From positions 4,836,001 through 4,900,000 of the forward strand of contig NZ_CP036262.1 in the NCBI RefSeq assembly GCF_007741495.1: 64,000 bases of DNA, read 5' to 3'. Position numbers and translations under genes: made by a program. This document shows, one piece after another, positions 816-18,109 of the stretch. This DNA is from Roseimaritima multifibrata (lineage in GTDB: Bacteria; Planctomycetota; Planctomycetia; Pirellulales; Pirellulaceae). The notes beneath the pieces were generated by a model, which was not told the origin of the DNA, did no database searches, and saw only the letters and a program-made list of their open reading frames with translations. How positions within the stretch are numbered: position 1 is the stretch's first letter; each line of letters opens with the position of its first letter.

Positions 816-927
816 TCGATAAGCCGCGAACGGTTCTTCGGGCTTATTTTGTCTCTGCAGGCCCAGATGGTTAACTCAATAGGTTGCAGGGGTGAGAATC
901 CCCGGAACGAAACCGAATACCAGCCAA

Positions 928-1606
928 GAGGCGGAGCAGCGAAGGTCGAACCGACCGGGAAATCGATGCCCAAGTCGGAGCGATCCCCCGTAGCCGAGTC
1001 TCTCCGAGACTCGTGCATGCCAACTCTCCGCCTCGGAGAGGCGGAGCTACGAAGGTCGAACCGACCGGGAAATCGATGCCCAAGTCGGAGCGATCGCACG
1101 TAGTAGAGTCTCTCCGAGACTCGTGCTTGCCAACTCTCCGCCTCGGAGAGGCGGAGCTACGAAGAGGCGGAGCTACGAAGAGGCGGAGCAGCGAAGGTCG
1201 AACCGACCGGGAAATCGATGCCCAAGTCGGAGCGATCCCCCGTAGCCGAGTCTCTCCGAGACTCGTGCATGCCAACTCTCCGCCTCGGGGGACGTGCGAT
1301 AAATAAGTAGTGAGTGTGGCAGGGAGAAAAGGCCCCCTGCCAGCTTGCCTGGCATGAAGCCAAGATTTGAAATTAGTTCGCAGGGCTCCAGGAAAACGCA
1401 TCCAGTTCGGATTGCCGCTAAAAGCGGCAATCCGAACTGGATGCGAAAACCGTGGGGGCAACCACCTCTAATTTGAAATCTTGCGTTCCTGTCGGGTAAA
1501 CCGACGAGGGGACGTGGCGCGCGGGTGTCTGGCAGGTGCCAGCTGCTGTCAAAATATCAACTTATTTATCGCACGTCTCGAGAGGCGGAGCTACGAAGAG
1601 AGGCGA
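928..1606. repeat. Hairpin-repeat array 1 (110-bp units, interrupted by a foldback element)
   Basis: Three copies of a 110-bp unit occur at 928-1037, 1038-1147 and 1180-1290. Two extra 16-bp copies of the unit's first module (gaggcggagctacgaa) lie at 1148-1163 and 1164-1179. Each unit contains a hairpin with arms CTCCGCCTC/GAGGCGGAG, a second hairpin with arms CGAGTCTC/GAGACTCG (read on the minus strand), and a spacer containing ggtcgaaccgaccggg. The third unit is cut in the first hairpin's loop by the element at 1291-1577 and resumes at 1578-1606. On the minus strand the hairpin modules match those of the array at 17228-18109, but the spacer is different. Open frames inside the array are by-products of the repeat and are not genes. 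Confidence 0.85.
1291..1577. mobile_element. MITE-like foldback element, copy 1
   Basis: The element is 287 bp with a perfect 18-bp terminal inverted repeat (1291-1308 and 1560-1577; core GTGCGATAAATAAGT). Inside are several nested inverted repeats: GGCAGGG/CCCTGCC, two TGCCAG/CTGGCA stems, a pair around AGATTTGAAATTAG, and a perfect 23-bp central stem (1397-1419 with 1423-1445, loop aaa). It holds no plausible coding region, so any movement would need a transposase supplied in trans. It sits inside the CTCCGCCTC/GAGGCGGAG hairpin of the surrounding array. A diverged second copy lies at 17719-18000. No clean target duplication is visible. Confidence 0.75.
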
Positions 1607-1706
1607 CAATCTCTAAGAGCGAAATCCGCTGTGATTCGCCTCGAACGTTTATTTGCGGATGGTCCAATGCATCATCAATTTGATCGACATCCGTAAGGCA
1701 CCAACG

Positions 1707-1768
1707 CAAAAGAGCCAAAGGTCCGGTCGGCTGTTCCAATGAACACAACCTGCCGAACCTTTGGCTCT
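1707..1768 (-). terminator. Rho-independent terminator of rimI
   Basis: Perfect 12-bp arms (1711-1722 and 1757-1768) enclose an inner TCGGC/GCCGA stem. On the minus strand the stem is followed by TTTTGC. It lies 20 bases beyond the rimI stop, the right place and orientation to end that transcript. Confidence 0.75.
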
Positions 1769-1787
1769 ACTTAAACGCGTTGGCTGA

Positions 1788-2306
1788 TTAGCCGGCCAAT
1801 CGAGAAATTCGACTGGTTGGGTGTGCTAGTTCATCTGCAGTCGGCTGATAGCGATACTGCATCAGATAGGCATCCTCGGTACTGTCATCGTAGAAGTCTC
1901 GTAGTACGGAGACCGCTCGAAAATTCAGGCCGCGGAAGAACAGCTGAGCTTCCAAGTTGGTTTCGCGAACTTCCAACATGATTCGGTTGCGCCGATCATT
2001 CGAAAGTTTCCCGATCAACTTGCTGACCATCGCTCTTCCAATGCCCATTCGTTTGGCATCATCATGAACCGCAAAGTTCAGAATATGCAAACGATTTTTG
2101 TGCAATTCGTAAATCATAAAACCGACAACGCGATCTTCGTGCTCGGCAACCATGCCGATACAATTACGCTGACGCAAGCAACGAATAAAGTCCTCTTCGG
2201 ACCACGCGAATTCGAAACTCGCTGCTTCTATGTCCAACACGGCTTGCATATCTCGCCGGATCATCCAGCGGATATGAACGCACGTGTCCTGATCAGTGTG
2301 GCCCAT
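1788..2306 (-). CDS. rimI: RimI-type ribosomal-protein-alanine N-acetyltransferase (GNAT)
   Basis: The 172-residue product is a GNAT-fold acetyltransferase. The acetyl-CoA pyrophosphate-binding loop is RMGIGRAM (about 86-93). It is followed by the RimI-like blocks LEVRETNLEAQLFFRGLNFR (111-130) and RDFYDDSTEDAYLM (136-149). Family members acetylate the N-terminal alanine of ribosomal protein S18 or related N-termini using acetyl-CoA in the cytoplasm. I chose ATG at 2304-2306 because GGAAGGGAG lies just upstream on the coding strand and the family is usually 150-170 residues. The frame stays open to 2606, but that extension has no GNAT similarity and would overlap the divergent peptidase gene. 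The substrate cannot be told from sequence alone. Confidence 0.85.
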   Translation of the reverse strand: MGHTDQDTCVHIRWMIRRDMQAVLDIEAASFEFAWSEEDFIRCLRQRNCIGMVAEHEDRVVGFMIYELHKNRLHILNFAVHDDAKRMGIGRAMVSKLIGKLSNDRRNRIMLEVRETNLEAQLFFRGLNFRAVSVLRDFYDDSTEDAYLMQYRYQPTADELAHPTSRISRLAG

Positions 2307-2576
2307 CGTGGAACTCCCTTCCAACGGCAACTGCGGGTTCGTTCGAGTCAGATTTAGTAGGTTTTTCACTCCCCAAGCGATCGCTTGAAGCCAATCACCC
2401 TGACGGAGCGAAAAGTACCAGATCACCCCATCAGGGCCAAGACAAATTTCGAGAGCCCAAATCGGTCGATTATTAAAGGGCCTGCCCGCCCCAGTCCCTT
2501 GGTTTATGCTAATAGATAGTTGGATAGCTGCTGCTACGCCCCTCATTCTCCCTCCTAAAAGCGCCCAAAAACTCAA

Positions 2577-5500
2577 ATGTTTTGCCAACTTTTTTCCAGC
2601 GATCAATCTTTTTCGTGGGTAGCCTCTTTTGCAAACCTGCCCAAAGCCCTTTGTTTAACGCTTGGGGCCTCCTTTGCATTGCTAGCTACGCCTGCCACCT
2701 ACGGCCAAACCGCCGCTCATCCAGAAGTGGTTGAAAAGAGCGAAGGATCGGGCAATGAAGCGAAATTACTGGCTCAAACACGGCAAATCACCTTCGCGGG
2801 CCGCAAAGCTGGTGAAGGGTATTTCAGCGCCGACGGAAAAACGATGGTTTTTCAGAGCGAGCGAGAAGAGGGAAATCCGTTTTACCAGATCTATAAAATG
2901 GATATGGAAACGGCCGATATCACTCGCGAATCGACCGGCACCGGGAAAACGACCTGTGCCTGGATCGATCCCGTCCATGGAAACATCCTGTTCTCCAGCA
3001 CTCACACCGATCCCCAAGCGGTTGAAAAACAAAAAGCTGAAATCGCACTTCGCGCAAAAGGGGAACAGCGTCGGTATTCGTGGGATTACGACCCGCACTA
3101 CGACCTGTTTGCAAAATCGTCGGACACCGGTGAACTGACACAACTAACCAGCGAAGAAGGCTACGACGCCGAAGGGTCCTATAGCCCCGACGGCAGCCAG
3201 ATTGCGTTTGCTTCCAACCGCCAAGCCTACAACCGCAAACTGACCGAACGAGAACAGCACCTGTTCGATCAGGACCCTGCCAGCATGATGGAAATCTACA
3301 TCATGAATGCGGACGGTTCGAACGTTCGTCAGCTGACCGATACGTTGGGCTACGACGGCGGCCCGTTTTTCTCGCCCGATGGATCACGAATCTGCTGGCG
3401 ACGCTTTACCCCCGACGGTGCCTCTGCCGAGATCTACACGATGCGGGTAGACGGGACCGACCAACGCCGCTTAACCAACCTGCAAGCGATGAGCTGGGCG
3501 CCTTACTATCACCCATCGGGCGATTACCTGATCTTTACGACCAACGTGCAAGGTTTTGATAACTTTGAACTCTACATGGTCCGTGCCGATGGGGCAGGGG
3601 AGCCTGTCCGCGTCACTGACACGCCCAAAGCCGATCTTCTGCCGGTCTTCCTCCCGTCTGGCAAACAGCTCTCCTGGACGTCAACACGAACCGATTCAGG
3701 GCGTTCACAGATCTTTATCGCCGACTGGAATGATGCCGAAGCTAGAAAACTGCTGGGCATCGAAGAAGGCGAGAACAATGACGACGATCGCTCGGCGGCA
3801 CTTGCTTCAGCCGGAGCAACAAGCGCGGGCTTTTCGCCAGCGGATATCGGCCGCCACGTCGACTATTTGACTCGAGCCGAACTGAACGGCCGACTGACCG
3901 GAACGGACGGTGAGCGACGGGCTACGGCCTACGTCGCCGCCTACCTGGAAAGCCTTGGTTTCCTGCCAGCAGGCCGTGACGGATCATGGTTCCAGGAATT
4001 TGAATTCCCCGCCGGTTCCGAACGAACGGCTAAAAATCATTTTTCCCAGAACGACCAAAAATTCGTTTCCGATAAACAGTGGCGTCCTCTTTCCTTTTCG
4101 GGCAATGGAGATTTCGATTCGGCTGAACTGGTTTTCGCCGGCTATGGCCTGCAGGTCCCCGGGACTCCTGAAACCGAATACGACAGCTATGTCCATTTGG
4201 ATGTCGCCGGAAAATGGGTGGTCGTCCTCCGCGATCTTCCGCAAGATATCACCGCCGATGAACGCCAGCGGATGGCTCGGTATTCCGACCCGCGGCGGAA
4301 AGCGGCCGTCGCCCGGGACCACGGAGCTCGCGGAATCATTTTTGTAACCGGGCCTACCAGCAAAGTCCGCAACCGACTGATGCGGTTTGATCGCGATGCT
4401 TCCCAGGCAAGTGTCAGCATCGCCGTGATCAGCGTGACCGATGAAGTCGCGATGGAGTGGTTCAAATCGGCGGGCAAAAACCTGCAAGAAGTCCAGAAAA
4501 GCCTGGATGGAGGCGAACCACAAATGGGTTTCGTCCTCGCCAATTCCGACAAGAAAAGCAAGCTTCAGGTTTCAGCGACGATCGATATCTTGCGTAAAAC
4601 AGGAATCGGCCGAAATGTGGTTGGGCGACTGCCGGTCGCCAAAACACCGACCGAACAGATCGTCATCGTCGGGGCTCACGTCGATCACCTAGGACGCGGG
4701 GCGGGAAGCAATAGCTTGGCGAGCGAAAACGAACAGGACCAAGTCCACTTCGGCGCCGACGATAACGCCAGCGGTGTTGGAGCCATGTTAGAAGTGGCAC
4801 AAAGCATCGCATCACAGGTCCGCAGCGGGCAACTAAAAGCCAAACGAGACCTAGTGATCGCAGCCTGGTCGGGCGAAGAACTGGGACTCTTTGGGTCCCA
4901 AGCATTTGTCACCGAATTCAACGAACTGTTTCCCTACATTCAAAAACCAGCAGTCCATCCTCATGCTGCGGCGCATGCTCATGCACACGCCGATACCGAT
5001 GGGGACGCACACGCGGACGCCGATGCGGATGCGAAAAAAGCTGCCGCGCCGCCGACCGCTCACGGAGCTCCCACGGACGCGCAGTCGCTTTACCCTGGGA
5101 TTGCCGCCTACCTAAACCTAGACATGGTTGGTCGCTTACGCGAGAAATTGATCGTGCAAGGAATCGGATCTTCGCCCGCATGGGAAGCGACCGTACAAAG
5201 ACGTAACGGTCCGGTCGGGTTGGCGATGGAACTGGACAAAACGAGCAGCCGTTTGCCGACCGATGCCGCCTCGTTCGTCTCACGTGGAGTTCCCATCCTG
5301 GCGTTCTTCACAGGAGCCCATGAGGACTATCACACCCCGCGAGACACGGCCGACAAACTGAACTACGAGGGAGCCTCGCAGATCGCAAATCTAACGGCTT
5401 TGATCGCTCGTGGCTTGCTGCAAGACGATCAACCAATTCCGTTTGAGATGCACGAAGGCGAACAGGCCGAAGACGCTCCACGTGTTCGTTTGACCGCCTA

Positions 5501-5759
5501 CTTAGGAACAATCCCCGACTACGCCCAAGGCGACATCAAGGGACTGAAACTATCCGGCGTCGCCAAGCGCGGCCCTGCCGAGCAAGCGGGACTCCGCGGA
5601 GGTGACATCATCGTCGAACTTGCCGGCCGCAAGATCGAGAACATCTATGACTACACCTACGCGATCGAAGCGTTAAAGATCGGGGAACCCGTCAAAGCCA
5701 AGATCCTTCGCGACGGAAAACAGATCGAACGCTCCATCACACCAGGTTCCAGAGACTAA
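2577..5759 (+). CDS. Secreted M28 zinc aminopeptidase with PD40 propeller and C-terminal PDZ
   Basis: The product has 1060 residues. An N-terminal hydrophobic segment ending near ATYGQT (about residue 45) looks like a signal peptide. TolB/PD40-type repeats follow (about 60-400; recurring FSPDGSRI/YSPDGSQIAF and IYIMNADGS). The M28 peptidase region with an inserted PA-like segment spans about 420-940. The metal and catalytic residues are visible in order: GAHVDHLG (about 700), FGADDNASG (about 728), SGEELG (about 767), NLDMVG (about 847) and the histidine of DYHTPRDTADK (about 919). A PDZ domain closes the protein (about 972-1055). It probably trims peptides in the periplasm or outside the cell. 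A His/Asp/Ala-rich insert (about 794-832) breaks the catalytic domain between the Glu-Glu and Asp ligands. The gene is transcribed away from rimI and ends at a strong terminator. Confidence 0.9.
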   Translation: MFCQLFSSDQSFSWVASFANLPKALCLTLGASFALLATPATYGQTAAHPEVVEKSEGSGNEAKLLAQTRQITFAGRKAGEGYFSADGKTMVFQSEREEGNPFYQIYKMDMETADITRESTGTGKTTCAWIDPVHGNILFSSTHTDPQAVEKQKAEIALRAKGEQRRYSWDYDPHYDLFAKSSDTGELTQLTSEEGYDAEGSYSPDGSQIAFASNRQAYNRKLTEREQHLFDQDPASMMEIYIMNADGSNVRQLTDTLGYDGGPFFSPDGSRICWRRFTPDGASAEIYTMRVDGTDQRRLTNLQAMSWAPYYHPSGDYLIFTTNVQGFDNFELYMVRADGAGEPVRVTDTPKADLLPVFLPSGKQLSWTSTRTDSGRSQIFIADWNDAEARKLLGIEEGENNDDDRSAALASAGATSAGFSPADIGRHVDYLTRAELNGRLTGTDGERRATAYVAAYLESLGFLPAGRDGSWFQEFEFPAGSERTAKNHFSQNDQKFVSDKQWRPLSFSGNGDFDSAELVFAGYGLQVPGTPETEYDSYVHLDVAGKWVVVLRDLPQDITADERQRMARYSDPRRKAAVARDHGARGIIFVTGPTSKVRNRLMRFDRDASQASVSIAVISVTDEVAMEWFKSAGKNLQEVQKSLDGGEPQMGFVLANSDKKSKLQVSATIDILRKTGIGRNVVGRLPVAKTPTEQIVIVGAHVDHLGRGAGSNSLASENEQDQVHFGADDNASGVGAMLEVAQSIASQVRSGQLKAKRDLVIAAWSGEELGLFGSQAFVTEFNELFPYIQKPAVHPHAAAHAHAHADTDGDAHADADADAKKAAAPPTAHGAPTDAQSLYPGIAAYLNLDMVGRLREKLIVQGIGSSPAWEATVQRRNGPVGLAMELDKTSSRLPTDAASFVSRGVPILAFFTGAHEDYHTPRDTADKLNYEGASQIANLTALIARGLLQDDQPIPFEMHEGEQAEDAPRVRLTAYLGTIPDYAQGDIKGLKLSGVAKRGPAEQAGLRGGDIIVELAGRKIENIYDYTYAIEALKIGEPVKAKILRDGKQIERSITPGSRD

Positions 5760-5807
5760 CGGGGGGCGATCAGCCAAGTTCGAATCTTGTCACCCTGCCT
5801 TGAATCC

Positions 5808-5846
5808 AAAACAGCTCGTCGCGTTCATTTGCGGCGAGCTGTTTTT
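5808..5846 (+). terminator. Rho-independent terminator after the M28 peptidase gene
   Basis: Arms AAAACAGCTCG and CGAGCTGTTTT are perfectly complementary and extended inward by further pairs. A short loop separates them and a T-run follows on the plus strand. It lies about 50 bases after the peptidase stop. The A-run on the other side could let it work in both directions. Confidence 0.8.
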
Positions 5847-6269
5847 ATGGACCCAAGTGCTTGGCGAGCCCGTACGCTTGGCGATTGGCGATTGCCAGCC
5901 GCGAGAATCGCACGGACACGCTCAACCCAATCGCAGATGCCGATGTGGCTGGGCAACGCGGCTGCGATTGCGGGTCTGGGCAACGCGGCTGGATTGCGAG
6001 ACTGAATTGCGGGTCTGGATTGCGGGTCAGCGAATCACAGCCGAGCTAGTCGTGAGACCGTCCGGGCGTATAGTATGGGCCGAGGACAATGTGCCGGTCG
6101 GCAAGGAGATGGGTCGATTTCAGCATATTTTTTTCGTCAGCGTGCTCCAACATCAGGCGGCCGCTCACGCCTGCAGGAAATGCACGCATTGCCGATCGAC
6201 CGTCGATATTCGCCCCGTCCAAGGCCCATGCAAATCGGGTTGTGAAGTCACTCTAAACTTAAGAAATCT
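5847..6269. other. Non-coding stretch with short direct repeats
   Basis: No convincing gene lies here. Bases about 5950-6030 contain degenerate direct repeats built on gattgcgggtctgg and gcaacgcggctg. Open frames across this area have no recognisable protein features. The promoter of the bestrophin-like gene should lie in the last part, but no clear -35/-10 pair is visible. Confidence 0.5.
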
Positions 6270-7139
6270 GTGCTGCGTCAAATACTACCAACTTTTGCAC
6301 TGCGTCGAGCACTGCTGATGTCCTGCCTAATTGCGGCCTACAGTGGGCTTGCCGTCTGGAAGGAGCAAGGGCCATACGCACGCTATGCAGACTTTCCTGC
6401 AGGCCTTGAAGCTGCCCTGTCCCTGGCAATCGGCATGCTGCTGGCGTTTCGTGTCAATCGGGCGTTCGATCGCTGGTGGGAAGGCCGAATTCTGTGGGGA
6501 ACGCTGGTCAATAGCAGTCGAAATCTGGCTGTCAAAGCCAACAATGTTGTCGCGAAACGCGATGCCTCATTCGACCGTCTGCACTCACTGGTTGCCGCAT
6601 TTCCTTTTTCGCTCCGGGACCACCTGCGAGGCTGCTCCGCATTCACTCAGCTCCCGGGATTGTCTGGCGAACGGTTTAGCGGCGAGCACATCCCAAGCTG
6701 GATCGTAAATCAGATCTATGGAATCTTCGAAGTATGGAAACGTGACCATCGCATTCAGTACGGCGAGTTTCGAATGCTTGACCGTGAAGCAAAAGTGCTG
6801 CTCGAAGTTTGCGGCGGCTGTGAGCGAATCAGGAATACGCCGATCGCAGCCTCCTACCGCGTCCTTCTGCACCATGCGATATGGCTCTTCTTACTGGTAT
6901 CACCGTGGGGACTAGTGGATCAGTTTGGTTGGTGGACCATTCCGGTTGTGTTCCTCACTTCCTATCTGGTCATTGCCGCAGAGATTGTGGCAGAACATAT
7001 TGAACAGCCATTTGGTGCCATCGGCGACAAACTTGATCTTGATGGGATCTGCCAGACCATCCATCGTTCCGTAGACGAAATCTTCGCCACGGAGACGATG
7101 AGCACCTTGTCGCAGCAAAATCGCGCCGCGGACAACTAG
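6270..7139 (+). CDS. Bestrophin-like (UPF0187) membrane channel
   Basis: The 289-residue protein has hydrophobic segments at about 14-30, 43-61, 200-217 and 221-241. The bestrophin-type block NRAFDRWWEGRILWGTLVNSSRN (about 63-85) and a near-C-terminal EHIEQPFG motif (bacterial homologues have xxPFG here) support the family. Length matches bacterial bestrophins (about 290-300 residues), which form pentameric ion channels in the inner membrane, some conducting cations. The start codon is GTG at 6270; no strong Shine-Dalgarno site is visible. The gene stands alone between two non-coding stretches, so context gives no clue to its physiological role. Confidence 0.8.
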   Translation: MLRQILPTFALRRALLMSCLIAAYSGLAVWKEQGPYARYADFPAGLEAALSLAIGMLLAFRVNRAFDRWWEGRILWGTLVNSSRNLAVKANNVVAKRDASFDRLHSLVAAFPFSLRDHLRGCSAFTQLPGLSGERFSGEHIPSWIVNQIYGIFEVWKRDHRIQYGEFRMLDREAKVLLEVCGGCERIRNTPIAASYRVLLHHAIWLFLLVSPWGLVDQFGWWTIPVVFLTSYLVIAAEIVAEHIEQPFGAIGDKLDLDGICQTIHRSVDEIFATETMSTLSQQNRAADN

Positions 7140-7707
7140 TCAGGAGCCAGCCCTCTTCAGCCCTGACAGAATCTTGTGCAACTCCAGACATTCGCCAACA
7201 GCAAGTAGCCAACCTAACGCACCTTCGCGATGACCTGCTCCTACCTGCTTGGATGGGCGGATCCGGGCAAGCTTAAATCACATCTCTCAAAACTAAAATC
7301 AGCAACCACCTAGGGACACTCTGCACCGACAAAGGCCTTTGTGCTCTGGGATTCGATGCTGCACCGATAATCACAGTGCGATGGCGATCTACCGCTACGT
7401 CCCCAAGCTTGATGCCGTGCAATTCAATTCCATAATGAATCCAAACGACTGCCTCCACCGCACACCCAATCCACGTGCCGAACGGTGTTGGGGCTGACCT
7501 GTTTGATCCGTTTCAGTCCAACCATGGATATCCGGTCAGTCCATGGAGTATAGTGTTTTGGTTCAGACGACAGCGACGGTCTCCTGCGACTCCCGCTTCA
7601 TTCCCAGCGAAGATAGACGCATCGTGTCTTGTCCGACACCTTAGGATTGCATTGATATAGTAATCACTCAGCTGAATTTCGTTCCCCGACCACTTGCATT
7701 GAATGAG
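7140..7707. other. Non-coding stretch
   Basis: About 570 bases between the bestrophin-like gene and the next secreted-protein gene. I see no supported gene, RNA, repeat or terminator; the few short open frames lack start signals and protein character. Confidence 0.5.
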
Positions 7708-9630
7708 ATGAGCCGTCACCGCATGATCCGCACGTCGCTAACACTTCTGATGTTCTTGGTACCTACGACAGCACTTCTCGCTGACACGGGCGATCCCCAA
7801 ATCCGCACGGACCATCCCTGGTATCCAGGTGAACTGGCGATCTCCACATTCGACCGACTTTTCGCGACGCAGGCAGAAACTTATCAGCGTGTCACCGGAC
7901 TGGAGGTTGAATCCGACGAGCAGAAGGCATTAGCTTCTTGGCTTTGGCGAAATACGCATTATTGGCACGGGGAAGCCGGGCGTCGCGATCTGTGGGGAGA
8001 CGGATTTAAGTCTACAAAGGACACACGTCTTCGCGAGTACTGGAATGGGCTTTTCGGGTACGGTTTTGGGTTGTGCGGCACCACCCATTCGCAGTGGACC
8101 GCTGAGTTTGAACATTTGTTGGGACATGGTCGAGGCCGCGGCGTCGGCGCGGCGGGACACAATGCCTTTGAAGTATTTCTGCAGCATGGCAACTACGGGC
8201 CCAACGGACGCTGGGCGCTATTGGATCACGATTTGTCGACAGTCATCTTTGATGAATCAGGTCGCCGGTTGCTGGGACTTGGCGAAATGCAACCGAACGT
8301 CGACCATTGGATTGATCGTCGTTTTAAGCCTGAGAGGCAACGTGGTTGGCTGGTGTGCGGACTGCATCCGGGCGACGGGAACTCGTATCGGAAATACGCC
8401 GTCGCGGAATACTTGGCCGGTTACGCCGGACCGCCTCCGATGGTGCGATTACGTCGTGGTGAGCGGATGCGTCGGTACTTTGAACCGGGTCTTGAAGACA
8501 GAAAAACGTTTGTCTTTTGGGGAAGGAATTACAACACCGATGGTATTCCGGGGCCCGAGCGTTCGAGGACCTGGGTCAATCAGCCCGAACAGATGCATGG
8601 CTCCACATCCGGGACGCCGCACAGGAATGGGCAAGTTCGCTTTGCAAATGTTGAATACATTTATCGACCGGACTTTGCCACGGAGGACTATCGCGAAGGT
8701 GTCGTGGCGGAGAACGACGAACAGGTCGTTTTCGCATTCCAAACTCCGTACGTGATTGGTGCAACACCGCCCACTGACGACGACTGGGGCATTTATGAAG
8801 CGGGTTGCCGAAATGGTCTGGTGCTCCGTGGCGAGGCGAGTTGCGAAGTGTCGATCTCGGTCGACGCTGGCCGCACATGGCTGGCAAAGCAGAAATTCGT
8901 CGACGGCCTGGATTTGACAGACTTTGCAAAAGGACGGTCGCAATACTGGCTTAGATTCTCCACAAGTGCAAAGCAGCTCGCCGATTCGAATCTGCAGATT
9001 CGCACGGTTTGCCAGGCCAACGTGGCAGTTCTCCCACGACTGAAGGACGACGGAACCACGATCAGCTATGAAGCCAGCGGCAACAGCGTGTTGTCGATGG
9101 GGCCCGAAATGGAACTGGCGAGCCGGTTTGTCACAGGCGGCGCCATTGGTGAAAAGACGGTGACACTCACGGCCACGCCCAACGAGCCTGTCACTCGCGT
9201 TTACGCAGCGGCACACACGGCTTCGGGCAATCCTCCGAATCCAAATGTTAAATACTCGATCGAGTACAGTCTTGACGCCGGCAAGAATTGGCAGCCGATC
9301 GTGAACGATTGGGTGGTACCGCGAAGAGGTGATGAACCCGGTGATTTTTGGTCTCAAAGTTTGTGCTACGGCTCCTGCTTGCTGAACGCTGAACCAGGCA
9401 GACCCATTCAGATCCGCTTTCGCAACGACGGCGGCAAACGCTATCTTCGCATTGAGGCACACTTGATTCAGAACACAGGTAACCCCGATCCGGTAAAAGT
9501 AACGTACCAATGGACGGACTCGGAGGGTGAGCATCAGAAATCGCACCTGTTCGACGCGAACGGTCAATGGCAGCTCGCGACCGCCAGGAATGTTCGCACA
9601 CGATGGGTTGAGTTCGAACCGGCACCGTAG
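7708..9630 (+). CDS. Secreted transglutaminase-like protein of unknown function
   Basis: ATG at 7708 (MSRHRM..) is preferred to the in-frame TTG at 7699; a further ATG at 7723 would begin directly at the signal peptide (MIRTSLTLLMFLVPTTALLA). The mature protein, about 610 residues, carries a Cys-His-Asp arrangement typical of the transglutaminase-like papain fold: the Cys in GLCGTTHSQW (about 123), the His in AAGHNAFEVFL (about 151) and an Asp in WALLDHD (about 173-175). The C-terminal half is rich in beta strands and contains two SVDAGRTW/SLDAGKNW-like pieces, suggesting Ig-like or propeller modules. It could be a peptidase or a non-catalytic homologue in the periplasm. The SGNH gene starts 84 bases downstream on the same strand, so the two may form an operon. 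Confidence 0.7.
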   Translation: MSRHRMIRTSLTLLMFLVPTTALLADTGDPQIRTDHPWYPGELAISTFDRLFATQAETYQRVTGLEVESDEQKALASWLWRNTHYWHGEAGRRDLWGDGFKSTKDTRLREYWNGLFGYGFGLCGTTHSQWTAEFEHLLGHGRGRGVGAAGHNAFEVFLQHGNYGPNGRWALLDHDLSTVIFDESGRRLLGLGEMQPNVDHWIDRRFKPERQRGWLVCGLHPGDGNSYRKYAVAEYLAGYAGPPPMVRLRRGERMRRYFEPGLEDRKTFVFWGRNYNTDGIPGPERSRTWVNQPEQMHGSTSGTPHRNGQVRFANVEYIYRPDFATEDYREGVVAENDEQVVFAFQTPYVIGATPPTDDDWGIYEAGCRNGLVLRGEASCEVSISVDAGRTWLAKQKFVDGLDLTDFAKGRSQYWLRFSTSAKQLADSNLQIRTVCQANVAVLPRLKDDGTTISYEASGNSVLSMGPEMELASRFVTGGAIGEKTVTLTATPNEPVTRVYAAAHTASGNPPNPNVKYSIEYSLDAGKNWQPIVNDWVVPRRGDEPGDFWSQSLCYGSCLLNAEPGRPIQIRFRNDGGKRYLRIEAHLIQNTGNPDPVKVTYQWTDSEGEHQKSHLFDANGQWQLATARNVRTRWVEFEPAP

Positions 9631-9836
9631 CGTCCGAAATCGTCCAATCCGCACGGATTGAAGACGACGGACGGCTTCGGTGTGGCAACAGGTAATCTAA
9701 AGAAAGGCAGAACAATGAGAAATCACTTCCCCTCCGCGACGCTGATACTCTCGTCCGGTCTATGCCTAATGCTTGTTGCCGCATGGCAGGTTGGCGCTGC
9801 GGGCGCTGATCGCGAACCGGACTGGGTCGCGCCGAT

Positions 9837-9844
9837 GAAACAGG
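9837..9844. repeat. Target-site duplication, left copy (GAAACAGG)
   Basis: The same eight bases recur at 11294-11301 on the other side of the insertion sequence. Eight bases is within the range typical of IS256-family elements. Confidence 0.85.
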
Positions 9845-9925
9845 GGGGATGTCCGATTTGTTGTTGAAACTCTTGATGGTCTCTCGGGTAAAACGTAGGT
9901 GGTTGTGTCTGAGCTTGCAAGAAGA

Positions 9926-9970
9926 TTCCCCCATCCCAGCTTCGCCGTAGGCGAAGCTGGGATGGGGGAA
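9926..9970 (-). terminator. Perfect 21-bp hairpin downstream of the transposase gene
   Basis: Arms 9926-9946 and 9950-9970 are exactly complementary with a 3-base loop (gta). It begins six bases beyond the transposase stop, so it may terminate that transcript or insulate it, although no long T-run follows on the minus strand. Confidence 0.55.
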
Positions 9971-9975
9971 AGACG

Positions 9976-11184
9976 TTAGGCAGGCGGTACCTCCGGTCGC
10001 CCCAGGGCCGCGACAAGCAAGGGAAGTGATGTGTGACCGGTGATCCGGCGAAACCCTTTCTCGGCCTCCAGCAACGCATACGAAAGCCACCGACTTGCTT
10101 GATCGGTTTCGGCGCGAAAACGCGTCACACGCCCCAGTCTGCGACGCGTGTTTAAGAATGAGTTCTCAATCGCGTTAGTGCTCAAAAGTGAACGGTGAAG
10201 CGTGTTGGGGACGTTCAAGCGATGCAAAGCCAGCAGGTCATCACCGGCTTCGTGCAGACTCCGATACGCCTCGGCGTTTATCGGTTCCAAGAACGTTTTG
10301 AGCTCGCCGAAGATTTCCTCGGCAGCTTCGATTCCCTGAACGCGGCGAAGGCGAGTGAATAGACGCGATAGTTCGCCCCAATGACGCTTGGAAAGTTTTC
10401 CTTTGATATTACGTTCTTTGTGAACCAAACAACGCTGGATGACAGCGTCAGAAAAGAACTCAACCACCGCACCGCGAAGAGCATCGCTGCCATCGAGAAC
10501 CACGTACAAGCGGTGGTCGCATGTGAAGCCGCGATTGACGATTCGGGTCATCAGTTCACGCGAAACTTCCAGGTTTTCACTACTGCCCAACGCAAAGTCC
10601 AAGACGTGTTTACGGCCTCCGCTGTCGATCCCCAGTGCCACTACGGCAGTCTGATCTTTGCTCAAATGGATGCCGTCAAGCATCAACGCACACCAGGTGA
10701 TCGAGCTCAGGTCCTTCCCTCGCATCTGCTCAATCAACTTGTTGCCAGCGTCCTTCCAAAGTCGCGAAACGTTGGATTTTTTGACACCGGGAGAATTCGG
10801 CTTTAGCTCTTCGATACCGCGAGAAGTGACCCCCGAAACGATCGCTTGTACGATCTGTGCCTGTAACTGTTGGGGATCTTTGGCGACACGGTAGGTGCTT
10901 AGTTCAACTTCATGACTGGAGCCGTTACTGAACTTCTGACGCACTCGCGGCCGGACAACTTCTTCGCGTTCGCCCTCGTACAGCACACGCCCTGAGCTTG
11001 AGCCGGCACGATAGACATCGCTGGACGTGGGATCGTGCTTGGGACCGCACAGCTCCGTTACTTCTGCGGCCATGACTTCACTGATCATTTCCCGCACGTG
11101 ACCTCTCAGGAAATTGCGAAAGATCTGTCCGGTTTCAGAAGCTGAAACTTGCCCCAGTGATTCTAAAAGACTAACTTCATTCAT
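9976..11184 (-). CDS. IS256-family (Mutator-type) transposase
   Basis: The 402-residue DDE transposase has catalytic acids in MLDGIHL (about D170), VLDGSDAL (about D231) and NAIENSFLNTRRRLG (about E340). The IS256-family Cys-His signature QRCLVHKERN follows the second Asp. The N-terminal region contains GPKHDPTSSDVYRAG, similar to the zinc/DNA-binding part of the family. Family enzymes move by a copy-out route and usually leave 8-9 bp duplications, which fits this site. I chose ATG at 11182-11184 (MNEVSLLESLG); the frame remains open to 11277 but that extension runs almost to the element end. The gene is complete and not visibly damaged, so the element may be active. Confidence 0.92.
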   Translation of the reverse strand: MNEVSLLESLGQVSASETGQIFRNFLRGHVREMISEVMAAEVTELCGPKHDPTSSDVYRAGSSSGRVLYEGEREEVVRPRVRQKFSNGSSHEVELSTYRVAKDPQQLQAQIVQAIVSGVTSRGIEELKPNSPGVKKSNVSRLWKDAGNKLIEQMRGKDLSSITWCALMLDGIHLSKDQTAVVALGIDSGGRKHVLDFALGSSENLEVSRELMTRIVNRGFTCDHRLYVVLDGSDALRGAVVEFFSDAVIQRCLVHKERNIKGKLSKRHWGELSRLFTRLRRVQGIEAAEEIFGELKTFLEPINAEAYRSLHEAGDDLLALHRLNVPNTLHRSLLSTNAIENSFLNTRRRLGRVTRFRAETDQASRWLSYALLEAEKGFRRITGHTSLPLLVAALGRPEVPPA

Positions 11185-12029
11185 GATGGTCTCCCCGTCG
11201 GTTGCTGCCGACGAAAATTGGAAAGTTGTGGAGAGCAGAGTCTGCTCTCCGGGAGACCATCTTTCAACTTTCAACAATTATTTGGACGCTTCCGAAACAG
11301 GTCCACTCGAAGTATCGAGGAGAGCGGGGCGTGCTGGCTCAGTTTGGCGATTCAATCACCGATTCGCGCGCGTTTTGGTTCAGTCTCCGCTACAAGAGGA
11401 ATAACGCGCCGCCGGAAATGGTCAAGGCATTCGATCTAGTCAGCTCGCACATGATCGAGGATTGCTGGGACCGCAAAGGTCCGGAGAACGGCAACCAGGG
11501 TGGCAAGACGATTCGCTGGGCCGATCAGAATTTATCGAAATGGCTGATGCGACTGAATCCCGAAGTCGCCATCGTCATGTTCGGCACCAACGATTTGAAC
11601 TCAGTCCCCGGCACTGAATACGAAAAGAAAATGCGCCTTGTTGTGCAGCGATGCCTCGACAACGGGACCATCGTGATTCTCACGACGATCCCTCCGCGTC
11701 ACGGTTTCACCGAAGAAGCGGCAGAGTTTTCCAAAATCATTCGTTCCATCGCGCGCGACCTCGAAGTTCCGCTCATCGACTACCACGCAGAAATCCTCCA
11801 GCGCCGTCCAGAAGACTGGGACGGTGCACTCGACAAATTCAAAGACTATCAGGGCTACAACGTTCCGACCTTGATCGCTCGCGATGGTGTGCACCCGTCC
11901 GCACCCGAACAGTACCGAGGCGACTACTCCGCCGAATCGCTGACCCGCAACGGCTTCGAACTGCGGAATTATCTCACACTCTTGAAGTATGGCGAAGTGA
12001 TTGACCAAGTGTTGACTGCGCAGAAATAA

Positions 12030-12387
12030 GCCGAGAGAAAAGCGGCCACGCGGGAGAAAAGGGGTCAGGAGCATATAATGCGAATAAGTTATTTACCTCG
12101 CCGAGATTTGTGGCCGCGTCGCGGTCTCTGCATTAGCTTGAACTACTTCGGTCGTCGCTTGAGCACCCTGGACTCGTAGCGGTCAGGACGTTTACGAACG
12201 ACGTATTGCATGCGAACGCTTGCAAATTACCTCGATCACCTAATTCGAAGCTAACTTGAAGACAGCTTCAAAGCAGCAGCAAACGGACATCTGGCAGCTA
12301 ACCCGGAAGGACTGGGGTGGCTGATCCACCATATACTCTATGCTGCCGCTTTATTTTTCATTACGGCATCCACAATCGAGGTTTCTC
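12030..12387. other. Non-coding stretch before the peroxiredoxin gene
   Basis: No gene is supported here. A TATAAT-like hexamer occurs at about 12074-12079 without a convincing -35 partner. The peroxiredoxin promoter should lie in this stretch. Confidence 0.4.
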
Positions 12388-13038
12388 ATGACTACTTTAC
12401 GCGATCAAACCAATGCACAGTTCGCTAAACTGATGCAATCGAAACCTGCATTTGCCAACCTAATTGAGTCATTACTGGCTAAAGCTCGCGATTTCGGAGA
12501 TGGCAAGGATGCGATTGCAGTGGGGCAACCCGCTCCAAATTTTGATCTACCAAATGCCATAGGTGAATCGGTCGAATTGTCGGCTTTGCTCGCCGGCGGC
12601 CCAGTGGTGCTAATGTTCTATCGAGGCAGTTGGTGTCCTTACTGCAACCTGCAGCTCCGTGCGATGCAAGCTCGCTTGGCTGACATCGAAAAACTTGGCG
12701 GACAGCTGGTTGCGGTGAGTCCTGAGATTCCCGACGAATCCCTATCGTTAACCGAAAGGGCGGAACTAAAGTTCACGGTACTTTCAGACAAAGACGCGCT
12801 GATTGCTGCACAGTACGGAGTCGCTTGGAAAGTCCCCGAACCAATTCTCGACCACATGCGCAACGACCGTGGTCTGGACCTAGCCAAGATCAATGATGGC
12901 AATGCTACCGTGCTACCGATCCCGGCGACTTTTGTCATTTCAGCGGATGGCATCGTGACATGGCAATATGTCAACGTCGATTATCGTCATCGCGCGGAAC
13001 CGGATGACGTTATCGCAGCACTTCTCGCGTTGAAGTAA
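12388..13038 (+). CDS. Peroxiredoxin-like (AhpC/TSA, redoxin) protein
   Basis: The 216-residue thioredoxin-fold protein has the motif FYRGSWCPYCNLQLRAM with Cys83 and Cys86. An N-terminal helical extension precedes the redoxin core, which begins about GQPAPNFDLPNA. Such proteins reduce peroxides or act as thiol-disulfide reductants in the cytoplasm; no signal peptide is present. The adjacent CxxC pair suggests an intramolecular disulfide during the cycle. I chose ATG at 12388 (MTTLRDQ), preceded by cgaggt, over the upstream in-frame ATG at 12340. It stands alone on its strand, facing the large cytochrome gene, with a shared hairpin terminator between them. Confidence 0.85.
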   Translation: MTTLRDQTNAQFAKLMQSKPAFANLIESLLAKARDFGDGKDAIAVGQPAPNFDLPNAIGESVELSALLAGGPVVLMFYRGSWCPYCNLQLRAMQARLADIEKLGGQLVAVSPEIPDESLSLTERAELKFTVLSDKDALIAAQYGVAWKVPEPILDHMRNDRGLDLAKINDGNATVLPIPATFVISADGIVTWQYVNVDYRHRAEPDDVIAALLALK

Positions 13039-13301
13039 TGGCTCCACAGCTCCGACAGCTTTTGCTGGACGAGCAGCACTCCCTAACGGGAGAGCAACGC
13101 TTTGGGCACGGCTTTTCCTCCTGGGCGGCATCGATAACTTGGAGGGGTGCGTATGACAGCCGGTTCCCGACGTGCAACCGGGGTCCGAATTCGATCACCA
13201 GGCACCTCCACGCAGGAGAAAAAGGACCACCATGGATCCTTTCCCTCCAGCCAAGAATCTCGCCAGCGGTGACCTAAACAGCGGTTCGCTTGGCGCATAA
13301 A

Positions 13302-13331
13302 ATCGGCGTGGGAATTTCTTCCCACGCCGAT
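13302..13331. terminator. Bidirectional hairpin between convergent genes
   Basis: Arms ATCGGCGTGGGAA and TTCCCACGCCGAT are perfect 13-base complements around a TTTC loop. It lies between the peroxiredoxin stop (13038) and the stop of the convergent dehydrogenase gene (13362), about 30 bases from the latter. No long T-run is present. Confidence 0.65.
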
Positions 13332-13361
13332 CGAGATGTCAACGATGAACTCTCAAAACGC

Positions 13362-16300
13362 CTATTTGCGTTTTCGAGTTTCGATGATGTACTTCATCAG
13401 GTCATCGAATTCCTTGCGGTTCTTCATCTGCCGAGCCAGATTAGCGGGCATCAGCGAGATCTTGGACTCACTGACATCCTCAATCGTATCTTGAGGAATC
13501 GTAATCGGGTTGGGTTCCGCTAGGTTTCGCAAGACGATCTCTTTGTCGTTCTCCGAAATCCGAACGCCTGTCTGCAGTTTGCCGTCGTCGGTCAACACAC
13601 TGACTTGGGCAAATTCTTTGTCGATCGCGTTGGAAGGACGCAAGATGGCGTCGACCAATTGTTCGGGCGACAACTTGGTAGGAACTTTCGACAAATCAGG
13701 ACCAAGGCGAGCCGCACCGGAAGGTGGATCGTGACACGCGAAACAGGCGGCCGAGGACTGATAGAACAACTTCTTGCCACGATGGGCGTTTCCGCGATCG
13801 ATGGCAACTTTGGCTAGTTCAGCCAATGGCGTGTTAAGCAGTTCTTCTTCCAGTTTCTCATTGGAGAACTCTTCGCCGACAGCTCCTGAATTGTTTGCTG
13901 CATAAGCGGCATCCATCGGATGTTCGGCAAGCAAATCTTCTGGTGTCCAGAAGGTCGTGCGATCAATGGTCTCGTCACGTACCCGCTTAACGCTGGCAGC
14001 GCTAACGGGGGCTGCTTCATTTCCCCAGGTATTGCGAACGAACGTTAGCACGGCGGCCAATTCTTCGTCTTTCAACAACGATCGGAAAGCGGTCATCGGG
14101 GGTACCCCGCGACTTGGATCAAACGTTTTTCCGTTGACAACCATTTTGCCCCACACACCGTGCAGGGTCATCTTGATCAAACGATCCTCGCTGCCGGTTA
14201 CCCAAGGGCTGGCGACAAGCGACGGATAGACGTTGGGGCTGCCTTTACCGTGTGCCAGGTGACAGGTCGCACAATGGGATTCACGCTGAAAGACTTCGGC
14301 GCCCAATTTGTAGGCCTTGCGGTCTTCAGCGCTCAATCGTTTCGGCGGATCAAATTTGACGAATTCGACTTCCGCTGGGGCGGCAAACCCGCTGGCGCCG
14401 GTGGCGTCGACGTTGTGCCAGAAATGCTGCACGGTCTTCGCTGCGACAACCGCATGCTTGACATCGGATCCCAAAAGGGCGTTCAACAATTCTTCGTTTT
14501 GAACGCCATGCTGTTGGTGCATCCAGAGGGCTTCCAGAAGGTGATGGGCTTCGGTTTCATCATTGGGATCGAAGCCTTCCATCCACTTCTGTGTAGCCGC
14601 GATAACCTGGTCGGAATCGCGTCCACTCAATTCGACACGCGTGCGATGACGAACTCCGTCGACGGGGTGTTTCAGGTTTTCAAGCAACGCCTCGATTGGC
14701 TGCCCGTCGATCTTCACGGGCTCTTGAAGAGGCCGATCTTTTACGGTCAGCCGGAAGATACGACCATGTTTATGGTCGCGGTTAGGGTCGCGGATATTGT
14801 GCTGCATATGACCGATGATGGCGTTGTGCCAGTCGGCGACGTACAACGCACCATCTTCACCGATGATCGCATCGGTTGGGCGGAAATTTCGGTCTTCGCT
14901 ATTCAGCAATTCGATCCCTGGGGTTCCCCAGACATGACCGAATTCGCGGTCCTTGCCGTTGCCTTCACGGTCCAAGGAGTACTGTTTAATTCCCAAGAAC
15001 CCGATCGTATTGCAGATCAAGAAATCATTTTGCAGCTCTTCAGGGAAGTGAGCCGATGACATGATTTCGTCCGCAGCGACGGGTCGAAATTCCTTGGTCA
15101 GCAAGGTATGCATTTTGAATCCCTTGCCTTCGGGACGCACCTGGAACGATTTGCCACCTGTACCGTCATTCGCATAACAGTATCCCCAGCGGTCAAAACT
15201 GGTGCCGTGAGGGTTCGGCGAATTGCCTGCGTGCGGTGTGATCGCGAAGGTGCGAGGGTCAAACCGGTACATCCCCGAAGCACCGATGGTCAGGTTCTGC
15301 TTCCACGGCGTTTCATGGTTATGGACCAAGAAGATTCCGCTTTGCCAATAGATCCCACCGTCGGGTCCGTAGATCAAATTGTTCGCAGCATGATGCGTGT
15401 CCGCGGTTCCCAGTCCCTGAAGGATCGGGTAGCGAACATCCGCAACATCGTCTCCGTCGGTATCTTTCAGGAACAACAGGTCAGGCCCTGAGGTGACAAT
15501 GACTCCGCCACCCCAGAATTCAAAACCCAATGGGTTGTGGACATGCGCGAAGATTTTGCGAGTGTCGGCTTTGCCGTCCTTATCGGTATCCTCAAAAATC
15601 ATGAGGGTATCGTTCATTTCTTTGCCGGGTTCCCACTTGGGATAGGTGTTCCAGCTTGCGGCCCACAGGCGGCCTTTGGAATCGACTTGCATCTGCACAG
15701 GGTTGGCTAGATCGGGAAACTGCACTTCCGATGCAAACAGATTCAGTTCGTAGCCCTCGGGAACCTTGATCAGTGCCATCGATTCTTCGGGGCTTAGATA
15801 ATCGACGCTTCCTTCTTTTGCCGCACTCGAGCTTTTACTACCGCCGCCAACGTTGGAGATAACCTTCACCGGTGGAGGAACATTGCTGTCGTCGATCGTG
15901 TAAGGTTTTCCAGCGACAGCCGCCCAGATCGCTTCATCGCGATTAGCGGTCATCACATCCAACATCACCAGTTCATGCTTCAGCACATCTGCGTTGCTCT
16001 GGCCGTCGACAAAGGTCAACGTCGAACGTCCACCCCAGATATCGTTTCCATCGGTCGCGTGGTAGCGATTGTGCCAATGCCAATTTTTGTCTTTGACTGC
16101 AGCATAGATATCTGCCGTTTTTTCACCGCCCGTTGGTTCTTTGCCCAGCAGGGCTTTCGCGATGATTCCAGATAGTTTCTGGTATCCATCCGCGTTCAAG
16201 TGGATTCCATTAATCGTGAATCGTTGGGAGCTGGACTGAAACAACTGCATGGTTGGGGAGTAGAGGTCAACGAACGTGGCCCCTGTTTCTTCCGCTGCCG

Positions 16301-16844
16301 CACGCGTGGCGGCGGTGATCGCCGCCAGATTGATATTCAGTTGGTTGCCATCGGGAAGATGCCGATCACCGGTATTCTCGTAGGCGATGGGGCTGAACAA
16401 AACGAATCGAAGGTCCTCTCCCTTTTCCTTACGCAGGTCCGTGTAACGTCTGACCAACTGAACCAATTCGGCTCGATAGGCATCCGCTTTTTCGGGACCG
16501 GCGAATGATTCGTTGTATCCATAAAACGCAAAGACAACGTCTGGCGCCACATGCTGAAGGTATTCCCCATCGTTGGTGAACCCTTTATTTCGCGGGCGTT
16601 TGTTCACCATGTCTCCGGAAAAACTCATATTCCGAAATCGAACGTTCTTCCCCTGCAATTCGGCTTGCAACACCGTTTCGACCCACGGGTCGTGTTGCAT
16701 GCGATCGGCAAGGCCGTTGCCGTAAATGGCAACCACGTCGTTCGCTTTAAACTCGAAAGGTTCGTCCGCCGCTGCCGGCGGAATTCCCCAGACGAGTGGC
16801 ATCAAGCCAATCGCTAATAGTACAGCCAGGTGTTTCTTTAACAT
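13362..16844 (-). CDS. SGNH-like / PVC-type dehydrogenase / cytochrome c fusion protein
   Basis: The 1160-residue exported protein begins with a signal peptide ([20 protein letters not shown]..). An SGNH-like domain follows (about 30-245). The PVC-type membrane-bound dehydrogenase beta-propeller spans about 360-740 ([48 protein letters not shown]). After it come a helical HEAT-like stretch and two haem sites: CATCH (about 858-862) and CFACH (about 1034-1038). The C-terminal domain is the kind found with planctomycete haem-binding proteins ([22 protein letters not shown]). It probably oxidises a sugar-type substrate in the periplasm and passes electrons to haem. In the SGNH part the usual GDS block reads YGNGL and the usual DxxH reads NGIH, so that domain may not be catalytic. 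Start ATG at 16842-16844 was chosen for the signal peptide; the frame is open to 16976. Confidence 0.85.
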
Positions 16845-17227
16845 TGCAAGGAAATCGTGGTTAGTGTTGGTGGAGTGATTCAATCGTTGCCGCAAATAGG
16901 CCGTCTCGTGACGAATGCCACTTGCGAAACCAGCAGCAAATAGACCAGCAATGGTAAGGGGGGCGAGCCGTCCCAAACATCCGCTAGCCGGCGCGTCAAC
17001 GCCCTCAAGAAGAGACCTCAGCCCCCCAATTTAGCAGCCTGGACTCTTTCCAGGGCAACCGACAGACCGATGGTCTTCATGGGCGTCCGTTACCGATTCT
17101 AATCGATCCGGTCGGCGGGCTCAAAAATTCGTCGAATTTCGGGGCAAGAATAGACCGCAAATACCCCGAATCGACCGCCCTGAGGCCCCCTTAGCACGAC
17201 AAGCCCCCTGAGGGACGTAAAGTTAAT

Positions 17228-18109
17228 GCCGTAGCTCCGCCTCTCCGAGGCGGAGAGCCTGGTACGCACGAGTCTCGGAGAGACTCGCCTACGTGCGATT
17301 CCACTCAGCAGGAACCACCGTCTGGCGACAGGAGCTAACGCATTGCCGTAGCTCCGCCTCTCCGAGGCGGAGAACTTGGTACGCACGAGTCTCGGAGAGA
17401 CTCGCCTACGTGCGATTCCCCCCAGCAGGAACCACCGTCTGGCGACAGTAGCTACAGCATTGCCGTAGCTACGCCTCTCCGAGGCGGAGAACTTGACGAG
17501 CACGAGTCTCGGAAAGACTCGCCTACGTGCGATTCCACCCAGCAGGAATCACCGTCTGGCGATGGTAGCTACGGCAATGCCGTAGCTCCGCCTCTCCGAG
17601 GCGGAGAGCCTGGTACGCACGAGTCTCGGAGAGACTCGCCTACGTGCGATTCCACCCAGCAGAAACCACCGTCTGGCGACGACAACTACGGCATTGCCGT
17701 AGCTCCGCCTCTCGGGTTGTGCGATAAATAAGTAGTGAGTGTGGCAGGGAGAAAAGGCCCCATGCCAGCTTGCCTGGCATGAAGCCAAGATTTGAAATTA
17801 GTTCGCATGGCTCTAGAAAAACGCTTCCCGTTCGGATTGCCGCTTTCAGCGGCAATCCGAACGGGATGCGAAAACCGTGGGGACAACCACCTCTAATTTC
17901 AAATCTTGCGTTCCTGTCGGGTAAACCGACGAGGGGACGTGGCGCTTGGATGTCTGGGCAGGTGCCAGCTGCTGTCAAACCGTCAACTTATATATCGCAC
18001 ATCCCCCGAGGCGGAGAACTTGGTAAGCACGAGTCTCGGAGAGACTCGCCTACGTGCGATTCCACTCAGCAGGAATCACCGTCTGGCGACGACAGCTAAC
18101 GCAGTCACT
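17228..18109. repeat. Hairpin-repeat array 2 (exact 117-bp period, interrupted by a foldback element)
   Basis: Four consecutive units start at 17228, 17345, 17462 and 17579, each exactly 117 bp. A fifth starts at 17696, is cut by the element at 17719-18000, and resumes at about 18003-18109. Each unit has a hairpin with arms CTCCGCCTC/GAGGCGGAG (first copy 17235-17255) and a second with arms CGAGTCTC/GAGACTCG (first copy 17269-17287). The ACGTGCGAT word follows, then a spacer containing GGAACCACCGTCTGGCGAC. Units differ from each other at only a few positions. The hairpin modules match the array at 928-1606 in opposite orientation, but the spacer is unrelated. Confidence 0.88.
17719..18000. 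mobile_element. MITE-like foldback element, copy 2
   Basis: A 282-bp homologue of the element at 1291-1577, in the same orientation on the plus strand. The terminal inverted repeat is 15 bp with one mismatch (17719-17733 and 17986-18000). The central stem (17822-17844 with 17848-17870) shows one compensatory change relative to copy 1 (A-T at 1404/1438 becomes C-G at 17829/17863) and one mismatch (17825/17867). It interrupts the loop of the CTCCGCCTC/GAGGCGGAG hairpin in the fifth unit of the array. No coding capacity is evident. Confidence 0.75.

Follow-up and report, generated by a model that had tools for sequence, protein, structure and literature searches.

Foldback elements of Roseimaritima multifibrata located at the centre of hairpins: a probable non-autonomous transposon with three-nucleotide loops as its target

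Bacterial miniature inverted-repeat transposable elements (MITEs) are small, non-coding sequences with inverted ends that are present in many copies. Repetitive extragenic palindromic (REP) sequences have been described as insertion targets of ISPa11, ISPpu9/10, ISPsy8 and ISRm22 (PMC1525189), REPs lying inside palindromes have been mentioned for three species (PMC3733652), and IS1272, an insertion sequence (IS) of the IS1182 family, has been described to pick stem-loops of unrelated sequence without duplication of the target, the model being that both hairpins of a cruciform are attacked and that one branch leads to duplication of the loop (PMC5678879). We describe here a foldback element that is present in two copies in a window of 64,000 nucleotides of the Roseimaritima multifibrata genome (NZ_CP036262.1, positions 4,836,001 to 4,900,000; Table 1) and in further copies throughout the same genome (G000 below; 7.2 Mb, one contig). 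These elements are probably a non-autonomous foldback transposon, i.e. a MITE, for which a hairpin with a three-nucleotide loop serves as the target. Loci are given as L numbers and genomes as G numbers, G002 being from the same genus.

Insertion at the middle base of the loop

In the young 292-bp family, to which both window copies belong, a hairpin loop X-Y-Z becomes XY[element]YZ upon insertion, both in REP and in non-REP hairpins. A search of G000 rendered 21 near-full matches (L001-L021) and, below these, diverged or incomplete ones, and 62 flank-distinct paired elements were tabulated in all. Counts for the 292-bp family refer to 20 copies; L010, with flanks that fit the rule (GCCTC-TC[...]CC-GAGGC) and a right arm common to a neighbouring element, stands outside them. 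The flanks of these copies paired best when two bases were skipped on each side, giving a mean of 6.0 Watson-Crick pairs out of 8, as compared to 3.50 +/- 0.34 (maximum 4.80) when the right flanks were re-dealt in 2000 shuffles; off-diagonal settings of the register gave ca. 2.2 out of 8. At least four of the first five pairs were formed in 17 of the 20 copies, as compared to 1.9% when 200,000 virtual insertions were placed at random in the window, and 18 of the 20 had the same base adjoining the element on either side. The element, whose ends read GGG...CCC, is thus found at the exact centre of hairpins such as CTTTCGC-TC[...]CC-GCGAAAG, ATCGC-TC[...]CA-GCGAT, GATTTC-TA[...]AT-GAAATC, GATGC-GA[...]AA-GCATC and GGCCC-TT[...]TC-GGGCC. 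About 11 of the 20 copies are in hairpins outside the two common REP types, and the loop has nearly always three nucleotides. Among the nine sites that a script classed as non-REP, seven pair well and all nine show the same base on both sides; this class left out L013 and L017, whose joined flanks accidentally spell a REP string and which both fit the rule.

To look for empty versions of the sites, the two flanks were united with the middle base written either once or twice, and the products were sought, with up to two substitutions allowed, in 529 kb (overlaps included) of retrieved G000 sequence. For L001, L002, L006, L011, L015, L018, L019 and L021 of the 292-bp family, and for L039 and L093 of other families, the resulting 20-mers were found in 2 to 24 distinct contexts with the base once and in none with the base twice, the host sites of window copies 1 and 2 giving 24 and 20 contexts, respectively. 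For 17 of the 27 sites tested, neither version was found at a paralogous locus, four of these being G002 sites that were sought in G000 sequence alone. Duplication of the whole three-nucleotide loop was also considered and rejected: L008 fits it (with TCA on either side, provided that the outermost bases are ascribed to the target), REP and other sites do not.

Read on one of the two strands, most loops are GGA or GAA. DNA hairpins with a C-GNA-G loop are known to be unusually stable, the two outer loop bases forming a sheared G.A pair that leaves the middle base free. With the ends of the triloop paired in this way, the rule would read as duplication of the free loop. A 191-bp copy (L067, G000 C1:3508581-3508771) interrupts the tetraloop of a REP-like hairpin, with TTA...TGC at its sides and possibly a two-base duplication.

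The original prediction, of two foldback copies sharing inverted ends and inserted as separate events in the loop of the same hairpin, holds for both window loci. Both copies lie between CTCCGCCTC and GAGGCGGAG, they are 91% identical and of opposite orientation relative to the host hairpin, and their outer flanks match left-to-left only, inverted and through a repeat of the REP arrays, which is unlike the pattern expected if one locus were a segmental duplicate that carried the element. Their folding energies are far lower than those of dinucleotide shuffles (z of -14.2 for copy 1 and -12.2 for copy 2), and the 23-bp central stem that had been proposed is unbroken in copy 1. The ends, in turn, lie a few bases further out than first placed, and the inverted repeats, real as they are, have ca. 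20 bp instead of 15-18 bp in both copies. Comparison of the flanks of the genomic copies, which pair as hairpin arms in one fixed register, supports the idea of a non-autonomous element that targets a hairpin loop, with the corrections that the CTCCGCCTC REP is not in itself the target and that the middle loop base is duplicated on insertion.

Table 1. Features of the window, with IS1182 and IS4-like elements of the same genome. Positions are those of the window unless a locus or contig is given.
Feature	Position	Strand	Remarks
Foldback element copy 1	1289..1579	+	292-bp family; 291 bp
Copy 1, left terminal inverted repeat	1289..1308	+	GGGACGTGCGATAAATAAGT
Copy 1, right terminal inverted repeat	1560..1579	-	ACTTATTTATCGCACGTCTC
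Copy 1, central stem	1397..1445	+	23 bp, 3-nt loop; 1397-1419 pairs with 1423-1445
Copy 1, host REP-like hairpin, left arm	1278..1286	.	CTCCGCCTC
Copy 1, host hairpin, right arm	1582..1590	.	GAGGCGGAG
Copy 1, host loop GGA, now split	1287-1288; 1580-1581		GG ... GA
Foldback element copy 2	17714..18005	+	292-bp family; 292 bp
Copy 2, left terminal inverted repeat	17714..17733	+	GGGTTGTGCGATAAATAAGT
Copy 2, right terminal inverted repeat	17986..18005	-	ACTTATATATCGCACATCCC
Copy 2, host REP-like hairpin, left arm	17703..17711	.	CTCCGCCTC; GTAG before it
Copy 2, host hairpin, right arm	18008..18016	.	GAGGCGGAG
Copy 2, host loop TCC, now split	17712-17713; 18006-18007		TC ... CC
Array (family D4)	926..1288	.	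units of ca. 110 bp with intact REP hairpins; source of empty sites
Array (families D1, D2)	17227..18103	.	117-bp units with intact REP hairpins; broken by copy 2
IS1182 copies L186, L188, L189	G000 C1:3016538, 4618480, 6173678		in REP tetraloops
IS4-like element	L248:720-2243 (G000 C1:3751219-3752742)		adjoins copy L015, beyond it

Elements with common ends and the search for an autonomous copy

The ends are shorter or longer writings of one motif (GGGNNGTGCGATWWAT, GGGACGTGCGATTTATAAGT, GGGANGTGCGATWWAT, GGGACGTGCGATTTATAAG). Written as GTGCGATAWATAAGT and with up to two mismatches, it was found 172 times in G000, as compared to 5 times for the reversed pattern, and foldback elements with other interiors, of ca. 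190, 290, 334 and 400 bp, have these ends as well. Among 241 genomes of the bacterial family, four contain the full end, GGGNNGTGCGATWWATAAGT, without mismatches (49 times in G000, 15 in G002, 8 in G244 and 3 in G182), and its reversed control rendered one match across all 241. In G002 there are 57 ends against 9 for the control, and they bound other cargo, one element (L108) carrying an inverted pair of GTAG-tagged hairpins; the base matches in 4 of 5 G002 rows. G244 has a cargo of its own, of 121 bp, with one copy in a GCCGC-GG[...]GA-GCGGC hairpin. By eye, hairpin targets can be read at several sites of the G002 and G244 elements, and for the G182 ends no clear partner end was found close by. 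Terminal inverted repeats, small size and many dispersed copies with defined ends are therefore all found here, as in MITEs.

Some copies are arranged in arrays. Five 404-bp copies, the last three 503 bp apart, are found at L077 (G000 C1:6280000-6290000), four ends at a spacing of 407-408 bp at L063, and ends every 268 bp at L149. A family of 119-137 bp in G003 (L114, L121, L124, L127) has a nearly identical inner end, GTGCGATAAATAACT, with GCATC as outer bases and TAA/TTA-like flanks, and does not follow the one-base rule.

The autonomous relative with the same ends that had been anticipated was not found; an IS1182 element with partly similar ends, which targets REP loops, was found instead. 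Exact GGGANGTGCGATWWAT ends number 79 in G000, and four facing pairs lie 0.5-10 kb apart: one of 502 bp consists of an element and a neighbouring lone end, one of 2479 bp of a 400-bp element and a half copy with an NfeD-like gene inside, and those of 647 and 915 bp are within a tandem array. No recognised transposase is present inside any of the four, and a pair detected with a looser end pattern (L146) holds no open reading frame of 200 amino acids. In G002, a pair 7 kb apart was discarded as an autonomous copy, for it holds methyltransferase, GDPD-like, DUF6493/DUF7824 and SWIM proteins and no transposase. Inspection by eye of the open reading frames within 1.5 kb of the G182 ends revealed no transposase, and those scanned between the neighbouring copies L006 and L015 of G000 encode alcohol dehydrogenases. 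ISKra4 elements have GGG ends; as a partner, ISKra4 was rejected, a partial G000 match (L143) standing alone and without related ends. L184, in a metagenome-assembled genome of Nitrospirota, was the sole match of a wider contig scan from which the own and very near genomes were perhaps excluded, and was ascribed to chance, since it consists of one end without a partner, located where an open reading frame of 361 amino acids terminates.

The candidate enzyme and rival explanations

The enzyme is most likely of the IS1182/IS1272 kind, or similar in action, in view of the IS1182 copies of this genome, which are inserted in REP loops and flanked by a duplicated loop. The three IS1182 copies of G000 (L186, L188, L189; 1795 bp) are identical to the base, and in all three the whole four-nucleotide loop of a REP hairpin is present on both sides: CCGTTGGC-GTAA[IS]GTAA-GCCAACGG, CCGGCGGC-TTAC[IS]TTAC-aCCGCCGG and CCGGCGGC-GTCA[IS]GTCA-GCCGCCGG. 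The loop is likewise duplicated at a G001 copy (L185). In a survey of the bacterial family, 17 end-paired rows from 16 loci, with ends at most 4 substitutions from the typed pattern, included nine with identical four-base flanks, among them L197, which has no stem; L203 is one base off, L214 has 5 bases, and six rows (L195, L198, L204, L210 twice, L220) have no matching flanks. Of 240 genomes of the family, 128 have a profile match to IS1182 (NF033551) with E <= 0.001, and in 26 of these the match is above the cut-off. The IS1182 end, CGGGCTGTTGATTTATTC, shares with the element end, GGGACGTGCGATTTATAAG, GATTTAT at positions 10-16 and G at 2-3, the remainder being mostly different. IS1182-like ends (TTGTTGATTTA and variants, often after CGGC) have also been seen in non-coding repeats (L055, L060, L061, L066, L068, L081, L084, L086), several of them just upstream of CTTTCGC-type hairpins, and TGYYGATTTA has 12 matches in 397 kb, against 1 when reversed. 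REPs of the type targeted by IS1182 are also found around a gene encoding a REP-associated tyrosine transposase (RAYT; L032).

We infer that the palindrome would extrude as a cruciform and that a DDE-type transposase, supplied in trans, would bind the GGGNNGTGCGATWWAT ends. The 3' ends of the element would then be joined between loop bases 1 and 2 in each of the two hairpin loops, and gap filling would copy the one base that separates the cuts. Some side evidence points to extrusion or breakage of these palindromes at the DNA level. Among 20 single-end copies examined, seven of the 334-bp family (L041, L043, L047, L056, L059, L060, L074) break off close to the apex of its central palindrome, at points from 22 bases short of it to 2 bases past it, as though the tip of the hairpin had been cut off. 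L078 and L086 break off at other places, L057 has almost its full length, and the remaining copies match other families or no family. In the 292-bp family, the apex of the central stem is found in inverted forms, GAA or TTC, with AAA in window copy 1 (alignment A1, columns 132-134), and three pairs of the predicted structure, two of them in the central 23-bp stem, have changed on both sides. Taken as a whole, this explanation is the probable one, with an enzyme of the IS1182/IS1272 kind as the candidate. A wider proposal, which we make only tentatively, is that of a shape-choosing transposition system, spread over three or more genera within a single bacterial family, which attacks between bases 1 and 2 of both loops of a triloop cruciform, so that the duplication equals the loop size minus two (one for a triloop, perhaps two for the tetraloop of L067), keeps its ends while exchanging its cargo, and nests hairpins by successive insertions.

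A number of observations weigh against insertion into an extruded loop by such an enzyme. Within the 292-bp family, L014 and L020 have no matching base, and the stems at L009, L012 and L014 are weak; the two sides of L014 and L020 resemble halves of differently oriented REPs and are perhaps recombination products. The older families do not display the one-base duplication: in the other G000 families the base matches in just 10 of 31 rows and pairing is in slight excess only (3.58 as compared to 2.84 +/- 0.28 when re-paired), and in G003 it matches in none of 6 rows (outer bases GCATC). Decay and rearrangement may account for part of this poor fit, but we cannot explain the four REP-B sites of the 334- and 404-bp families (L046, L064, L071, L083) at which the base differs with the arms intact or nearly so. 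The empty sites are paralogous ones of the same genome, none being orthologous. No autonomous element with these ends has been found, either with exact ends or, with looser patterns, among the matches listed. As for IS1182, the similarity of the ends is short, the profile search rendered no IS1182 or DDE_Tnp_1_6 match in the element-bearing G002 and G182, and the G244 match (NF033551) is weak. Finally, an IS4-like element of G000 (DDE_Tnp_1; NF033592 with 84 bits, below the cut-off of 115) is inserted in a CCGTTGGC-TTAC-GCCAACGG REP with GGCTTACGCC (GGC-TTAC-GCC) on both sides, i.e. a 10-bp duplication that comprises the loop and 3 bp of stem on each side.

This last duplication lowers the odds of the cruciform and raises those of the rival that survives best, in which the enzyme reads the palindromic duplex, as a dyad with an odd centre, without any extrusion of a hairpin. 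IS30-like transposases are known to recognise palindromic double-stranded sequence, and a dimeric enzyme on duplex DNA predicts a symmetric target with a central duplication; the fitting sites are indeed palindromes, and the 10 bp of the IS4-like element are centred on the dyad of the REP. Three kinds of element are thus located at palindrome centres in G000 with duplications of 1, 4 and 10 bases, which fits a general symmetry of the target and keeps this rival alive. We nevertheless regard it as unlikely, since the targets are unrelated apart from their self-complementarity, stem mismatches are present at L004, L005 and L017, the unpaired centre of the sites of the 292-bp family has almost always three bases, and the G000 IS1182 duplicates exactly the four-nucleotide unpaired loop. 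We know of no 1-bp duplication for IS30-like enzymes acting on duplex palindromes. Placement by a structure- or symmetry-directed enzyme that reads the shape or symmetry of its target, with no fixed sequence, is what these data suggest.

It could also be the case that a RAYT/TIRYT (Y1, HUH) transposase inserts a single strand into hairpin loops exposed on the lagging strand, which we consider improbable. Single-strand insertion by the Y1 enzymes of IS200/IS605 produces no duplication and takes place at a fixed short sequence, whereas a base is duplicated here and no fixed sequence precedes the site. Loops are single-stranded, REPs are abundant and G000 has 8 Y1_Tnp matches, but the two common REP types are absent within ca. 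1.5 kb of the 8 genes, and the full end motif is found near them once, as a half copy (L038), with no gene flanked on both sides. Tyrosine transposases with long flanking terminal inverted repeats, some with a GGGGWSAS motif, have been described together with REPs inserted inside palindromes (PMC3733652). Spread by homologous recombination or gene conversion between REP copies, with no transposition, would be consistent with the many copies in REPs, the hybrid appearance of L014 and L020 and the other repeats shared by some flanks, but is very hard to reconcile with the copies outside the two common REP types, which have the same element ends. A structured RNA gene or a retro-element copied via RNA is just as improbable, for in spite of the strong multi-stem fold and the pairs changed on both sides, a DNA palindrome accounts equally well for those changes, the cargo varies between families while the ends are kept, and no Rfam family reached its gathering score, the low-E-value matches falling far below theirs and being mostly, the best ones included, to microRNA hairpin models.

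Comparison with described systems

Some twenty natural insertions of one young family locate the insertion point within the loop with single-base precision, and the genome that carries them also provides empty paralogous sites, so that attack on a cruciform can be tested directly against duplex symmetry. Nesting would provide a route for the growth of large palindromic repeats, and the elements are a possible marker of hairpins that truly extrude in living cells. A search of the open-licence literature, by title and opening of the abstract, rendered nothing on these elements or on one-base duplication of a triloop, which is a weak negative.

The element resembles ISPa11, ISPpu9/10, ISPsy8 and ISRm22 in its specific insertion into REPs; the ISPa11 type, however, comprises full insertion sequences tied to REPs, whereas this element is non-coding and also uses hairpins that are not REPs. 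Like REPs and REPINs it is non-coding, palindromic and dispersed, but its ends (GGGNNGTGCGATWWATAAGT) lack the GTAG or CGTC tag, its length is ca. 120-400 bp and a base is duplicated; moreover, no tyrosine transposase is linked to its ends within ca. 1.5 kb on each side of the 8 Y1 loci of G000. With MITEs it shares small size, absence of coding capacity, inverted ends and the existence of several cargo families with the same ends, and it differs from usual MITEs in having a target determined by secondary structure or symmetry and a duplication of one base. The likeness to IS1182/IS1272 lies in stem-loop targets of unrelated sequence and in the local IS1182 copies in REP loops. IS1272 is reported to replace the stem-loop without duplication, the local IS1182 duplicates a four-nucleotide loop and the element one base of a three-nucleotide loop; in addition, the rest of the terminal repeat differs from that of IS1182, and two element-bearing genomes have no IS1182. 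An IS1182-like enzyme is therefore the best model and not a demonstrated partner. Shape-directed target choice has already been proposed for IS1272; what is new here is a variant of structure- or symmetry-directed transposition.

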